A program made the position numbers and the translations under genes. A DNA stretch of 47,541 bases from Ruminococcus sp. (GTDB lineage: Bacteria > Bacillota > Clostridia > Oscillospirales > Ruminococcaceae). Shown piece after piece: positions 2,308 through 47,541 of this stretch (within the stretch, counting starts at the first letter, position 1; each line of letters opens with the position of its first letter). The stretch is taken from positions 1-47,541 of the forward strand of contig JAJPYB010000012.1 of the NCBI GenBank assembly GCA_021205185.1, given 5' to 3'. Under the pieces are notes generated by a model, which was not told the origin of the DNA, ran no database searches, and saw only the letters and a list, made by a program, of their open reading frames with translations.

Positions 2308-3351
2308 TTATGCATAAATAACTGTGTTTATGTTGTCAAAAATCACAGCAAGATTCTGAAATACCTTTGCACTCTCGTCTGTTTCAGGATACTGATCGGT
2401 AAAGATTGTCAAAACAAACGGCGAGTCAGCATATACTATCGCACAAGCGTGAAATTGAGAGCCTGAATTAAACTGCGAGCCGTATTTTTCAGCTACCGTA
2501 TACTTGGATTCCAAAGCATATCTTATTTGCATATTGACGTCAACGTCGTCAGCCGTCATATATTCCAGCATCAGATCGCCATATTCTCCGTCCTCTATGT
2601 AATAGTAAATATCCTCGAAGTTTTTAAGCATATCCAAAGAGGTGCAATAGGTGAATATCCACGAGCTGCCAAGCGTAATCGAGGTTCCAAGCTCCGTCTG
2701 ATTAGCGTTGAACTGACTGTATCCGTAGTAATTGTGAAGATTATAATACGCTGAGTTGTCGCTGTATGAAAGGGTTCTGCGAATAAGCTCTTTAGCTGTA
2801 AGCTGCGTTCCGTATTCAAGTGAAGCTACATAGCCTGTATCGCCCGACCATGTAAGCGTTTTGGAAATCATTTCATCGAGGTCGATATTTTGTTCAAGAA
2901 TCGACTTTACAAAAGGCGCCTTTATAGTTGAACAGGTCAGAAAGCTTGCGCTTTCGTTGTAATTTATCGCAGCGCCTGTTTCTATATTCTTAAAGCTGAA
3001 TGCAAGCTTGAAATCAGCTTCGTTTACTACCTCCTGAAGCTCGTCAAGAAAATTCTCAAAATCAGATGGGGAGGTTACCATATCAAAATCAGAAAGCGAG
3101 AACGAGTAATCAAAGCTGTTTGTATCTACAGATGCAGGATTGTACTCCTGAGTTACAGCCGTAGTTGTAGTAGTTGTTGTAGTAGTTGTAGTAGTGGTTG
3201 TGGTAGAAGTCGTAGTAGTTTCTTCCTGTTCGGTTACTGATGAGGAAGAATCAACTGTTGAGCTTTTTTCAACGGTATCAGTACAGCCTGCAAATACTGC
3301 TATAAAGCATACAGCCATTATAACGGAAGTTAAGCGTTTGCATATAGTCAT
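2308..3351 (-). CDS. Lipoprotein serine hydrolase of the class A beta-lactamase fold
   Basis: The product has 347 aa. A signal peptide ends in the lipobox FAGC with Cys23, so the protein should be a membrane-anchored lipoprotein. A Ser/Thr-rich linker with an almost pure Thr run (about residues 45-64) leads to the catalytic domain from ~90. The S-T-I-K tetrad (Ser141, Lys144) and S-D-N (197-199) match the SxxK and SDN motifs of class A beta-lactamases and related DD-peptidases. Near the C-terminus KYG followed by HACAIVYADSPFVLTIFTD takes the place of KTG. It more likely acts on cell-wall peptides or as a penicillin-interacting housekeeping hydrolase than as a true beta-lactamase, because no Glu166-type loop is obvious. 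TGAGGTAA precedes the start. Confidence 0.75.
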   Translation of the reverse strand: MTICKRLTSVIMAVCFIAVFAGCTDTVEKSSTVDSSSSVTEQEETTTTSTTTTTTTTTTTTTTTAVTQEYNPASVDTNSFDYSFSLSDFDMVTSPSDFENFLDELQEVVNEADFKLAFSFKNIETGAAINYNESASFLTCSTIKAPFVKSILEQNIDLDEMISKTLTWSGDTGYVASLEYGTQLTAKELIRRTLSYSDNSAYYNLHNYYGYSQFNANQTELGTSITLGSSWIFTYCTSLDMLKNFEDIYYYIEDGEYGDLMLEYMTADDVDVNMQIRYALESKYTVAEKYGSQFNSGSQFHACAIVYADSPFVLTIFTDQYPETDESAKVFQNLAVIFDNINTVIYA

Positions 3352-3432
3352 TGTGTTTACCTCACATCGTTTTACTATACCCCTTATTTAATCCCCGAAA
3401 GCTTCTTACAACAAGCACCAAACTATCTATAT

Positions 3433-3461
3433 ATTTTAACAGTTTTGGCCTATTATGTCAA
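3433..3461 (-). promoter_or_regulatory. Promoter for the serine hydrolase/glycosidase pair
   Basis: On the minus strand TTGACA (3456-3461), a 17-bp spacer and TAAAAT (3433-3438) precede the lipoprotein start at 3351. No better promoter is seen before the glycosidase, which supports a two-gene unit. Confidence 0.65.
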
Positions 3462-3542
3462 GGTTTACAGTCGCTTGATTGGTGAGAAGTTGATGATATT
3501 TGTGTGATAATCTAATTTTGTGCACAAAGGCAAAAAGCAGCG

Positions 3543-3571
3543 TTGATTTTTTTGCCGCTATGATGTATAAT
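3543..3571 (+). promoter_or_regulatory. Promoter for the cyclophilin operon
   Basis: TTGATT (3543-3548), a 17-bp spacer and TATAAT (3566-3571) lie about 45 bp before the cyclophilin start. The three following genes are closely spaced or overlapping and probably share this promoter. Confidence 0.65.
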
Positions 3572-3616
3572 TATAGTGCTTGAAAAAATGTATTTGACAA
3601 TAAGGAGATTTTCACA

Positions 3617-4090
3617 ATGGTAGTAATTGAAATGGAAAACGGACATAAAATCACTCTTGAGCTTTATCCGGAGGCTGCGCCTATTACGGTAAAGAACTTT
3701 GAAAGACTTGTATCTGAAGGCTTTTATGACGGACTTATTTTTCACAGAGTAATTCCTGGCTTTATGATTCAAGGCGGCGACCCGGAAGGCACAGGAATGG
3801 GTGGAGCCAAGGAAAAGATAAAGGGCGAGTTTTTATCAAACGGCGTTAAAAACGACCTCAAGCATACAAGGGGAGTTATTTCAATGGCGAGAAGTATGAT
3901 GCCAAACTCCGCCTCATCGCAGTTCTTTATTATGCACAAGGATGCGCCGCATCTGGACGGAAGCTATGCGGCATTTGGAAAGGTAATTGACGGCATTGAG
4001 GTAGTCGACGAGATAGCGGCTGTAAAGTGTGATTATAATGATAAGCCGCTAACCCCACAGGTAATGAAGAGAGTATACATCAAGGACTAA
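3617..4090 (+). CDS. ppiB: Peptidyl-prolyl cis-trans isomerase, cyclophilin type
   Basis: The product has 157 aa and is a compact single-domain cyclophilin that catalyses cis-trans isomerisation of Xaa-Pro bonds during folding. Hallmarks are FHRVIPGFMIQGGDPEGTG with the catalytic Arg, SQFFI, and the LDGSYAAFGKVIDG segment. There is no signal peptide, so it is cytoplasmic. AAGGAG lies 9 bases before the ATG. The next gene starts 5 bp after the stop, so the two are co-transcribed. Length and motifs are normal for the bacterial PpiB group. Confidence 0.93.
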   Translation: MVVIEMENGHKITLELYPEAAPITVKNFERLVSEGFYDGLIFHRVIPGFMIQGGDPEGTGMGGAKEKIKGEFLSNGVKNDLKHTRGVISMARSMMPNSASSQFFIMHKDAPHLDGSYAAFGKVIDGIEVVDEIAAVKCDYNDKPLTPQVMKRVYIKD

Positions 4091-4095
4091 GGCTT

Positions 4096-5241
4096 ATGAT
4101 TTTAAAAAATGCGACAATTCACACGATGAATGATAACGGCGATGTGATTGAAAACGGCTTTGTTGAAACTGACGGAAGAATTATTAAAAGCGTTGGCGCA
4201 GACAACCCGCAAGAGGGGATTGACTTAAACGGCGCTGATATTTATCCGGGCTTTATCGACGCTCATTCTCACTTGGGACTTTTTACAAGCGGCGTTGGAA
4301 TTGAAGGGGAGGACTTTAACGAGGATTCAGACCCCGTAACTCCTCAGCTTGACACCAAGGACGCTATTTATCCGTTTGATTCTTCCTTTGCTGACGCTAT
4401 TTCAGCAGGCGTTACTACATCCGTTGTTTCGCCAGGAAGCACAAATACGATAGCCGGTAAAATCTCAGCCATTAAAACTCAAGGTAAGCGTATCGACGAT
4501 ATGCTGATTCGCACAGTCGGTATGAAGTTTTCGCTCGGTGAAAATCCAAAGATGACCTACATCGATAAGGATTCGTCGCCCGTTACAAGAATGGCGATAG
4601 CGTCCCTTATCAGAGAAGCCTTAAGCAAGGCAAAAAGATATATGGAGCAAAAGCAAAAGGCTGACAGCATTGACGACGAGCCTGAATTTGACACAAAATG
4701 CGAAGCTCTTATTCCGCTTTTAAAAAGGGAAGTCAAGGCGCATTTTCATTGCCACAGAGCCGACGATATTTTTACTGCTATCAGAATCTCAAAAGAATTT
4801 AACCTCGACTGCGTTTTGATTCATTGTACTGAGGGACATCTTATTGCCGACGAGCTTAAAGACGAAAATGTAAGCTGCGTTTTAGGACCTTTGCTTTGCG
4901 ACAGGTCAAAGCCTGAGCTTGCAAATTTAAACGACAAGAACCCTTCGATCCTTTGCTCGAAGGGAATTGATATTGCAATCTGTACCGACCATAGCGAGGT
5001 GCCTGTTCAGTATCTTCCTTTAAGCGTTGGCGTTGCAATTAAAAACGGACTGAGCTTTTCGGACGGACTTAAAAGCATAACCTGTAATGCGGCGAAAGCG
5101 GCGGGAATTTATGACAGAGTTGGAAGCATAGAAGCAGGCAAGGACGCAGATTTTGCAATTTTCGATTCTAATCCATTTGAGGTTATGTCGTCGCCTGTTA
5201 TGGTAGTATCAGACGGGAGAATAGTATATGAGAGAAATTGA
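4096..5241 (+). CDS. Imidazolonepropionase-like amidohydrolase
   Basis: The product has 381 aa and belongs to the amidohydrolase superfamily. A small N-terminal beta domain leads into PGFIDAHSHLG, whose His57 and His59 are the first two metal ligands. Further metal-ligand candidates are HFHCHRADD, the His in LIHCTEGHL, and the Asp in CTDHSE near the C-terminal end of the barrel, followed by the usual 'GxIEAGKDADFAIFD' closing segment. It is closest in style to imidazolonepropionase-like or aryldialkylphosphatase-like hydrolases of unknown substrate; no other histidine-degradation gene is nearby. The ATG follows the cyclophilin stop by 5 bp, and the stop overlaps the start of the fumarase subunit gene by 14 nt, so translation is probably coupled. 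Confidence 0.8.
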   Translation: MILKNATIHTMNDNGDVIENGFVETDGRIIKSVGADNPQEGIDLNGADIYPGFIDAHSHLGLFTSGVGIEGEDFNEDSDPVTPQLDTKDAIYPFDSSFADAISAGVTTSVVSPGSTNTIAGKISAIKTQGKRIDDMLIRTVGMKFSLGENPKMTYIDKDSSPVTRMAIASLIREALSKAKRYMEQKQKADSIDDEPEFDTKCEALIPLLKREVKAHFHCHRADDIFTAIRISKEFNLDCVLIHCTEGHLIADELKDENVSCVLGPLLCDRSKPELANLNDKNPSILCSKGIDIAICTDHSEVPVQYLPLSVGVAIKNGLSFSDGLKSITCNAAKAAGIYDRVGSIEAGKDADFAIFDSNPFEVMSSPVMVVSDGRIVYERN

Positions 5242-46135: not shown

Positions 46136-46260
46136 TCCGACATATAGGCGTACAGGCGAAACTGTGTCACACAAAACAAACTGCTTAATGCTGCTCGGTT
46201 CCCCGCCTGACATGGTTCACAGCGTTTCGTTGCACAGGACCTGCACACCTATATCTCGGA
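46136..46260 (-). ncRNA. ffs: Signal recognition particle RNA, short (4.5S-like) form
   Basis: On the minus strand the ends TCCGAGATATAGG and CCTATATGTCGGA close a long hairpin. The helix 8 core is present: ACCATGTCAGG, then CGG-GGAA-CCG with a GGAA tetraloop, then AGCAGC, the Ffh-binding signature. An additional CGAAAC/GTTTCG helix supports the fold. About 125 nt leaves no room for an Alu domain. The position just upstream of dnaX is conserved in Firmicutes. This and the hairpin at 46382-46503 account for most of the 46101-46497 gap. Confidence 0.9.
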
Positions 46261-46288: not shown

Positions 46289-46317
46289 ATTTTACCATAC
46301 CTGCCTGAATTTTTCAA
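46289..46317 (-). promoter_or_regulatory. SRP RNA promoter
   Basis: On the minus strand TTGAAA (46312-46317), a 17-bp spacer ending in TGG and TAAAAT (46289-46294), about 30 bp before the RNA gene. Read-through probably also expresses dnaX. Confidence 0.75.
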
Positions 46318-46381
46318 GTGCTTTTTTGCTTTTTCTTAAAAATGCAAGTTCTATAATTAAATGCAAGAGGTAACAAATTAC

Positions 46382-46503
46382 ATCTTAAACCGCTAATTGA
46401 CCTTTTGCACTATAAAAATGCAGCTGTCAAGGGCGGCGGTAGCCGTTTATTTACCCTTTACAGCTGCATTTTTATGTGCTATATAAGCGGAGCGGTTTAA
46501 GAT
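46382..46503. repeat. Large nested hairpin, possible phage origin/packaging signal or terminator
   Basis: Outer arms ATCTTAAACCGCT (46382-46394) and AGCGGTTTAAGAT (46491-46503) are perfect 13-bp inverted repeats. Inside, GCAC/GTGC and then TAAAAATGCAGCTGT (46413-46427) with ACAGCTGCATTTTTA (46460-46474) form a 15-bp stem, followed by AAGGG/CCCTT and an apical CGGC-GGTA-GCCG. The right arm overlaps the end of the leftward small gene, so it also works as that gene's terminator. Its size and layering exceed an ordinary terminator and recall the packaging/replication hairpins of filamentous phages. Confidence 0.6.
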
Positions 46504-46688
46504 TTATCTTTTAAATCTTTCAGCAGTTCATTGTTGATTTTTAGTAATTCTTTAGTTTTATGTAATTCAACGTAAATACCAATATCAATTACTAAAAATA
46601 AAATTATGATAAGTGCAATTATTATTGGTGCTCTGTTAATTAGATTTGAAATTATATCAAAGCTTATTTTGTATTCAGCTAGTACCAT
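46497..46688 (-). CDS. Small single-span membrane protein, 63 aa
   Basis: Residues ~22-42 (APIIIALIIILFLVIDIGIY) form a membrane helix, followed by a charged, Leu-rich helix (ELHKTKELLKINNELLKDLK) that could be a coiled coil. AAGGGAAGTGATT precedes the ATG, and the gene has its own strong promoter (46715-46743). It is divergent from the candidate phage genes and ends in the large hairpin. No family is recognised; on an inovirus it could be an accessory or superinfection-immunity protein. Confidence 0.6.
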   Translation of the reverse strand: MVLAEYKISFDIISNLINRAPIIIALIIILFLVIDIGIYVELHKTKELLKINNELLKDLKDKS

Positions 46689-46714
46689 TTAATCACTTCC
46701 CTTCTGCTGTAATT

Positions 46715-46743
46715 ATTATACAATGCTAATTGTCTAAAGTCAA
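46715..46743 (-). promoter_or_regulatory. Promoter of the 63-aa membrane protein gene
   Basis: On the minus strand TTGACT (46738-46743), a 17-bp spacer and TATAAT (46715-46720). A small AACATC/GATGTT hairpin lies just beyond at 46745-46761. Confidence 0.7.
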
Positions 46744-46795
46744 TAACATCTACTTGATGTTAAATAAATTTTTTAAAAAGGAGGTATCCATAATA

Positions 46796-47074
46796 ATGAC
46801 TAAGGTTATAGGATACGAATATTCAAAAGGTGAGTTCACAAGTGACAAAGGCGATGTTATTAGCTATGATAACATCAAAATCTACACGATTACAGATGTT
46901 TTTCAAAACATTGTCGGGTGTGGTTCTTCAATGCTTAAAATAAAGCGTGATGAACTGTTCAAGCTTACAGGGTTAAATAACCCAGATGATTTGCTGGACA
47001 AGGAAATTTTCCCGATTTACACACCAGTTGGAAATAGTGTTCGACTTACTTCTATTAGGATTGAGGAAAAATAA
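46796..47074 (+). CDS. Candidate phage ssDNA-binding protein, 92 aa
   Basis: The ATG at 46796 follows a perfect AAAGGAGG. The product begins MTKVIGYEYSKGEFTSDKGD, is beta-rich and has the compact OB-fold-like alternation (VISYDNIKIYTITDV, then YTPVGNSVRLTSIRIEE). In size, position and pattern it resembles the small helix-destabilising/ssDNA-binding proteins encoded just before the coat genes of filamentous phages. It is 3 bp upstream of a tiny membrane protein gene. No known family is firmly recognised, so the role is inferred mainly from gene order. Confidence 0.5.
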   Translation: MTKVIGYEYSKGEFTSDKGDVISYDNIKIYTITDVFQNIVGCGSSMLKIKRDELFKLTGLNNPDDLLDKEIFPIYTPVGNSVRLTSIRIEEK

Positions 47075-47077
47075 TCA

Positions 47078-47221
47078 ATGACAATTTATTCAGCGGATTT
47101 AGATACAATTTATGATATTTTAGTTGATATTGACGGAACTTTAAAATTTTTCGTTATCGGTTTATCAATTTTCCTTTTCTTTTATCTTTTTACACGCTGG
47201 ATTGATAATTTTCTTCGGTAA
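47078..47221 (+). CDS. Tiny single-span membrane protein, 47 aa (candidate minor coat protein)
   Basis: The product begins MTIYSADLDTIYDILVDIDG, continues with a membrane helix (FFVIGLSIFLFFYLFT, about 25-40) and ends RWIDNFLR. GAGGAAAA lies 7 bases before the ATG, and the gene starts 3 bp after the previous stop, so the two are co-transcribed. Size and shape fit gpVII/gpIX-like minor coat proteins of filamentous phages, which are similarly tiny. Function is inferred from context. Confidence 0.5.
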   Translation: MTIYSADLDTIYDILVDIDGTLKFFVIGLSIFLFFYLFTRWIDNFLR

Positions 47222-47277
47222 TAACTAGTTATTTATATATCAGTACTGTGTTTTTAATGTTTGAAAGGAGTTATTTT

Positions 47278-47475
47278 ATGCCTGTTACTACTGTTCTATT
47301 AGCTGCTGCAGACACTACTGCTATTGATTCCGCTGTTACAGATATGGTTTCAACAGTACAAGCTGTTATTACTTCAGCTTTACCGATTGTACTTCCTATT
47401 TGCGGTATTATCGTTGCTGCAGTGCTTGATTATGTTAATGCTGTGTGGAAACAAATCGAGAAATGTCAATATTGA
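47278..47475 (+). CDS. Candidate inovirus major coat protein, 65 aa
   Basis: The ATG at 47278 follows AAAGGAG at 7 bases. The product begins MPVTTVLLAAADTTAIDSAV, an Ala/Thr-rich, slightly acidic stretch, then TVQAVITSALPIVLPICGII and VAAVLDYV, a single hydrophobic helix, and ends with a short polar/basic tail (WKQIEKCQY). An acidic amphipathic front, Ala-rich helix and basic end is the pattern of filamentous phage major coat proteins, with DNA contacted by the C-terminal Lys. Such proteins share little sequence, so detection relies on form and neighbourhood. A bacteriocin-like or holin-like peptide is an alternative. Confidence 0.5.
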   Translation: MPVTTVLLAAADTTAIDSAVTDMVSTVQAVITSALPIVLPICGIIVAAVLDYVNAVWKQIEKCQY

Positions 47476-47497
47476 AGTGAGGGCGTCATAAAAACCA

Positions 47498-47526
47498 TTG
47501 TCAAACCCTTAAAAATGTGGTATATT
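47498..47526 (+). promoter_or_regulatory. Promoter at the right edge
   Basis: TTGTCA (47498-47503), a 17-bp spacer ending in TGG and TATATT (47521-47526). It would drive the next genes of the phage-like module beyond the window. Confidence 0.55.
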
Positions 47527-47541
47527 TAATATATGATAAAA

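Follow-up and report, generated by a model that had tools for sequence, protein, structure and literature searches.

The window is the whole stretch of DNA that was analysed, i.e. the 47,541 nucleotides of contig JAJPYB010000012.1 of Ruminococcus sp. It is an entire contig (C12) of a draft assembly of 13 contigs and 1.75 Mb, and its right edge cuts through an inserted element with genes like those of filamentous phages (inoviruses). The module that the first-pass annotation had noticed there breaks off at an assembly edge because the window is the complete contig. In this work, G000 denotes the genome of the window, other G numbers denote other genomes, C numbers denote contigs, and L numbers denote DNA stretches that were examined. 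The features at the right edge are shown in Table 1.

Table 1. Features of the inserted element and its flank in the window.
Feature	Position	Strand	Remarks
Host bacterial small signal recognition particle (SRP) RNA	46147..46246	-	Rfam RF00169, 69.2 bits (L112 1598-1697); its promoter is the insertion target
Predicted host SRP-RNA promoter	46289..46317	-	-10 TAAAAT 46289-46294, 17-bp spacer, -35 TTGAAA 46312-46317
Left copy of 14-15 bp target duplication	46329..46342	.	11 bp from -35 box; right copy on C13 beside right end
Left terminal inverted repeat	46343..46370	+	aligned with left ends of L032, L034, and L033; pairs with right end on C13
Long hairpin	46414..46473	+	outer stem covaries; candidate packaging signal or origin
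63-aa single-span membrane protein	46497..46688	-	counterparts of 63-64 aa in L031 and L037
92-aa gpV-like putative single-stranded DNA (ssDNA)-binding protein	46796..47074	+	predicted function
47-aa single-span protein, gpVII/IX position	47078..47221	+	48-aa counterparts in L032, L033, and L034
Major coat (gpVIII-like) gene, 65 aa	47278..47475	+	phage homology stops near 47429
Stretch between coat fragment and restriction-modification (RM) promoter	47430..47486	+	47460-47494 = C9:198173-198207
Putative promoter region of MmeI-type RM gene running off the contig	47487..47541	+	predicted from other gene copies

Small genes and left end of the element

The four reading frames of the module are present in the order in which they had been described. 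They are more than chance reading frames because proteins that are 44-72% identical to the 92-aa one occur in genomes of the same genus, where counterparts of the 63-, 47-, and 65-aa proteins adjoin them. Direct scans of the four proteins against Pfam and PHROGs gave nothing significant (best E values of 0.014 and 0.025, respectively), and the 65-aa protein matched a major coat family of PHROGs only at an E value of 0.38. The structure check of the 92-aa protein gave an OB-like model. This candidate fold and the complete prophages of relatives back the gpV position and the coat assignment that had been proposed.

The short single-span coat proteins follow the putative ssDNA-binding protein in order, and the coat C-terminus differs. 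The 65-aa protein does not have the basic C-terminus that had been ascribed to it, as its last 15 residues (DYVNAVWKQIEKCQY) occupy the place of the basic tail of its relatives (e.g. KLFKKFAKG). This C-terminus is probably foreign, as judged from the sequence, because the homology to the coat proteins of relatives runs out near base 47429.

The start of the module, which had been set at 46497, lies at 46343, with the terminal repeat and the covarying hairpin before the genes. Genome G007, from the same genus, matches the window at 99% identity as far as base 46342 and is prophage-free there. The left end was placed at 46343 because the identity with this empty site (G007:C34) stops at 46342. 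The right flank of the empty site was located in G000 at C13:3077. The left terminal repeat includes a -10-like TATAAT (46352-46357).

The stretch from 46414 to 46473 has a DNA fold z of -7.5. The outer helix is 98.2% paired across six prophages from about three lineages, with five of its 19 pairs changed on both sides, and the inner 4-pair helix had no support in the same six sequences (37.5% paired). The position of the hairpin suggests a packaging signal or an origin.

Right part, restriction gene, and missing middle

Three prophages (L031, L032, and L034) in two genomes of the same genus exhibit the same gene order and continue with a gp3-like protein, a Zot/pI-type ATPase, and a rolling-circle Rep. 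An IS30-family transposase is also present in two of the three. The scores were 23.6 bits for the Zot-like ATPase of L031 (PF05707, cut-off 20.3), 133.8 and 130.8 bits for the Rep of L031 and L034 (PF02486), and 426 bits for the transposase of L034 (phrog_4646). The filamentous-phage origin proposed for the module is borne out by these complete prophages, which bear Zot/pI-, Rep-, gp3-, and gp6-like genes. The Zot of relatives matches 27 phage records. No relative was found in IMG/VR with the single Zot sequence and the alignment of the 92-aa protein. The Zot alignment matched nine of 68 pattern stretches in IMG/VR and 29 of 221 in genome contigs, some of which were L031, L032, and L034 again.

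Two side observations concern these prophages. L031 (G001:C3) carries a tyrosine recombinase instead of the IS30 transposase and its Zot is still 78-79% identical; thus, integration modules swap. At the left end of L032 (2822-3391) and L034 (14945-15517), a divergent gene of the DUF2726 type (PF10881, 82 bits in L034) takes the place of the 63-aa protein of the present element.

The right part of the element was found on contig C13 of G000. This contig has, in order, 559 codons of a MmeI-type gene, a C-terminal remnant of Rep, an intact 343-aa transposase, and the right terminal repeat, which is followed by CTTTTTCTTAAAAA, a copy of the left duplication (46329-46342). The RM domains are MmeI_Mtase (303.9 bits), TRD (241.7 bits), and C (83.2 bits), and the transposase is assigned to the IS30 family (NCBIfam NF033563, 244.6 bits, cut-off 80). 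The neighbour of the module is an RM gene. The middle of the phage is gone, apparently replaced by a defence gene, because C13 shows the 3' part of the RM gene, the Rep remnant, the transposase, and the right repeat.

The first-pass annotation had named the lack of a Zot-like ATPase or replication gene to the right as a refuting outcome. On this criterion an intact phage is not supported, as no Zot or whole Rep was found in the whole assembly, where C13 has only the Rep remnant. The Pfam model of Zot (PF05707), which gives matches in five of 14 controls, found nothing in the assembly, and neither did the Zot and Rep of relatives. Searches with those relatives miss short remnants since the Rep remnant does exist on C13. 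The circularity check of 15 small contigs gave one 21-base terminal repeat (L067) and otherwise none. A complete inovirus prophage, inside which the contig ends and whose rest lies on an unbinned contig, is conceivable in a draft of 13 contigs, and contigs of G010 (two), G019, and G128 likewise end just past the module. However, the right end of this very element lies on C13 with the Rep tail, the transposase, the repeat, and the target duplication, and no Zot or whole Rep was found in the assembly, so that we consider a complete prophage very improbable indeed.

The last 55 bases of the window (47487-47541) recur without change at the end of contig C9. The corresponding stretch of G007, at 94% identity, is located between nfeD and a divergent MmeI-type gene, whose N and helical domains were recognised. 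A promoter-like site is present near the edge (-35 TTGTCA at 47498-47503 and -10 TATATT at 47521-47526). The new promoter that had been described exists as a site, and it looks like host DNA shared with the end of C9 and the nfeD locus of G007. The end of an insertion sequence was also considered for the last 55 bases and was ruled out, as G007 has host DNA beside nfeD there.

The copy of the MmeI-type gene in G007 has the MmeI_N and hel domains. Against the PADLOC type IIG model of 912 positions, C13 covers positions 350-910 and the G007 copy covers positions 6-366. The coordinates of the G007 copy indicate that about 1.1 kb is unsequenced between C12 and C13, and this gap would hold the 5' half of the RM gene. 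For a one-chain RM enzyme with nuclease, helical, methylase, target, and C domains, the 3' domains are present on C13 and the 5' half would fall in the sequencing gap, which is the weakest link in the story of the element. The G007 copy beside nfeD (L110, G007:C36, reversed 3224-4516) diverges immediately behind the FLD of the methylase motif, near the point at which C13 starts. The right end of C9 in G000 probably holds such a truncated second copy. The left ends of C9 and C4 in G000 have long G-rich low-complexity runs that are probably assembly artefacts.

The 35 bases at 47460-47494 are identical to G000:C9:198173-198207 (minus strand), a locus between pilT and an MFS transporter gene that looks like the promoter of the latter. 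The central 29 bases of this match were sought in viral contigs and none was found. The identity with a distant locus, together with an 8-base overlap at the joint, would fit an assembly chimera at 47430-47494 in which the coat fragment was wrongly joined to the RM promoter. Such a chimera is very unlikely, as a single inserted element accounts for both of its flanks and for the RM gene of C13, and C13 independently shows the RM gene followed by the Rep tail and the transposase.

The edge of the window is very probably the left part of a defective inovirus prophage, of an IS30-integrating gut group, whose middle has been replaced by a MmeI-type RM gene. Insertion would have been the work of the phage's own transposase (IS30 family), which would have placed the phage at the spacing used by its clade, 11 bp from the -35 box on the upstream side of the SRP-RNA promoter, and duplicated 14-15 bp, so that the core host promoter stays whole. 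The stretch from the 3' end of the coat gene through gp3, gp6, Zot, and most of Rep would have been lost later, and the MmeI-type single-chain RM gene would have come in with its promoter at the place of the lost stretch. The remaining element of about 5.4 kb would consist of the left repeat, the hairpin, the gpV-like gene, the 47-aa gene, the coat fragment, the RM gene, the Rep tail, the intact transposase, and the right repeat. It is unable to make virions alone, probably still protects its host by restriction, and may still transpose.

This element might instead be an active satellite, i.e. an RM-carrying inovirus satellite that is replicated and packaged by a helper inovirus. It has kept the terminal repeats, the hairpin, the gpV-like gene, and the intact transposase at about the size of a phage (about 5.4 kb versus 6.7 kb for L032 and L034). 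However, its coat gene is altered, a single copy was seen, and no helper Zot or Rep was found in its own genome, which makes a satellite improbable beside the defective prophage.

Distance between the insertions and host promoters

The 11-bp promoter rule is the strongest new result of this work. L032 and L034 are bounded by terminal inverted repeats and by direct repeats of 15 bp. The direct repeats differ between sites and are therefore target duplications and not a fixed attachment core. Relatives of the transposase at an E value of 1e-20 or better were found in 34 of 297 family genomes (including G000), and the 20 stretches examined cover 20 of the 38 listed transposase matches. For each of the seven sites whose left end was known, 240 positions were scored, and the top promoter-like one was always 11 bp past the duplication on the outward-reading strand (7/7, counting the own site with a duplication of 14 bp; in G034b, +10 scored equally). 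At the own site, this top position is the predicted SRP-RNA promoter. The background in the window was low, as the minimum score of the sites (9) was reached at 0.3% of positions and at 0.8% in AT-rich stretches.

The left-end core was then used as a pattern, with one mismatch allowed, in 396 family genomes. The best promoter of 150 positions was at the predicted offset in 11 of the 19 hits, including all eight exact hits (G034b was tied with the neighbouring offset). The other eight hits did not have a promoter at the expected place, and all of them are among the 11 one-mismatch hits. The reversed control pattern gave nine hits in the same genomes; thus, a similar number of chance hits is expected, which is about equal to the eight misses. 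Four of the 11 sites were already known, which leaves seven new sites.

In total, 14 insertion sites from 12 genomes and nine genera follow this spacing: the host promoter points away, and the element is found 11 bp upstream of its -35 box. Duplications of 14-15 bp were found at both ends of ten of these sites, and in one of the ten the two copies differ at one base in 15. Stable-RNA promoters account for six of the 14 targets (SRP RNA and tRNA-Arg, -Thr, -Ser, -Met, and -Gly). The carriers include inoviruses (L032, L034, G010, and, by Zot, G316 twice) and a tailed phage (G034, with tape-measure, tail, and head proteins), and the 8.1-kb element of L172 has a phage-type DNA polymerase. G034 has two prophages, of 30.3 kb (L167/L181/L182) and 38.4 kb (L168/L183/L184), that have their IS30-type ends in common and are flanked by 15-bp duplications. 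The tailed-phage proteins were found in the first of them.

The repeat and duplication finder initially gave a clear pair only in L032, L034, and L172 among 22 loci. When the right ends of ten loci were fixed by motif, no pair was present in the surrounding stretches of seven of them (L161, L162, L166, L167, L168, L174, and L178). L161, L167, L168, and L178 were later paired using DNA elsewhere in the same genomes, and L162, L166, and L174 stayed unpaired. The right copy of L201 was sought in L169 and was not found, and L205, L212, and L213 were outside the right-copy search.

The IS30 family makes a short target duplication of 2-3 bp, whereas the duplications here are 14-15 bp. As judged from sequence comparison, an IS30-family clade that is common to filamentous and tailed gut phages uses one fixed spacing to host promoters. 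The C-terminal domain of the alpha subunit of RNA polymerase binds the region upstream of the -35 box.

The joined ends were examined in the stretch after the transposase of 12 records. Eight of them (L187, L190, L192, L193, and L195-L198) exhibit two promoter-like boxes across the joint, followed by the left-end core. The boxes are TTGACT-16 bp-TAATAT in Faecalibacterium phage Lagaffe, TTGACT-17-TATCAT in MT837638, and TTGACT-17-TATGAT in the IMG/VR records L195-L198, and they are weaker in L192 and L193. In the bajarodino virus records L188 and L189, no more than a weak pair is seen (TTGCAA-17-TAAATT), and in L188 this pair is outside the three best-scoring positions. No promoter-like pair was found at the joint of the IMG/VR contigs L191 and L194. 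The ends of the present element have TTGACA and TATAAT. In the predicted joint promoter, the right end supplies the -35 box and the left end the -10 box, and IS30 itself is arranged in this way. The joint promoter would fire only after excision. In the joined ends of Lagaffe (L187, MG711461 29200-31200), the promoter-like pair faces a small helix-turn-helix gene similar to the N-terminal part of the transposase.

A further reading combines a promoter-reading IS30 clade and a promoter that is switched on in the excised circle with the present element as a live offshoot, a promoter-homing defence transposon that would derive from an inovirus and carry its RM gene between hosts, perhaps in particles of a helper inovirus. 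We regard this combination as rather unlikely.

The fixed spacing may explain how the small ssDNA phages of gut Clostridia can integrate into chromosomes with no damage to genes. One transposase clade and one promoter spacing would serve filamentous phages and at least one tailed phage, and the spacing offers a means of marking exact prophage ends in draft genomes. The element itself would be a filamentous prophage turned restriction-gene carrier, and defence islands could arise from phage relics in this way.

Comparison with known systems

The proposal of a new inovirus group was overstated, as related animal-gut inoviruses are in GenBank and inoviruses of gut Clostridia have appeared in print (PMC10061712). 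Bajarodino viruses 74 and 13 (PQ006121 and PQ006184; animal-gut inoviruses, Tubulavirales) have Zot, Rep, and an IS30-like transposase in one circular genome. The present element differs from them in that Zot, gp3, and most of Rep are missing and an RM gene is present. The inoviruses of Enterocloster and Hungatella are likewise reported as prophages of Gram-positive gut Clostridia with direct-repeat flanks; they were shown to be secreted, and the word transposase does not occur in the main text of that report (PMC10061712).

The integrase of phage Lagaffe (MG711461) belongs to the IS30 family and is 55% identical to that of G034, and Lagaffe is also flanked by direct repeats. However, Lagaffe is a 48-kb tailed phage. 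Lagaffe was reported to be active and the direct repeats around it were called unexpected, and the passages concerned do not mention promoter targeting (PMC5883640). The same report notes IS30-family enzymes in small ssDNA filamentous phages; therefore, an IS30-type inovirus as such is not new.

It has been reported that phage-domesticated and selfish transposases are indistinguishable by sequence alone (Roux et al., 2019). In the present case, the phage itself seems to be the transposon, as the repeats enclose all of it. The word restriction does not occur in the main text of that study (Roux et al., 2019), and an inovirus carrying a restriction gene was not found in the open-access literature as far as its accessible text extends. 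In the same literature, promoter-upstream targeting was described only for unrelated Mutator-type transposases and was not found for IS30-family phage integrases.

The RM gene on C13 has the Mtase, TRD, and C domains of MmeI-type (type IIL/IIG) enzymes, the G007 copy has MmeI_N and hel, and here the gene lies inside prophage ends. The closest precedent for the insertion pattern is in TnGBS, ISLre2, and ISKra4, whose Mutator-type transposases are described in the accessible text as inserting upstream of promoters at 15-17 bp from the -35 box (PMC3942029). The transposase of the present element belongs to the IS30 family and not to the Mutator superfamily. In TnGBS-type elements it is the right repeat that adjoins the promoter, whereas here it is the left end, at 11 bp.
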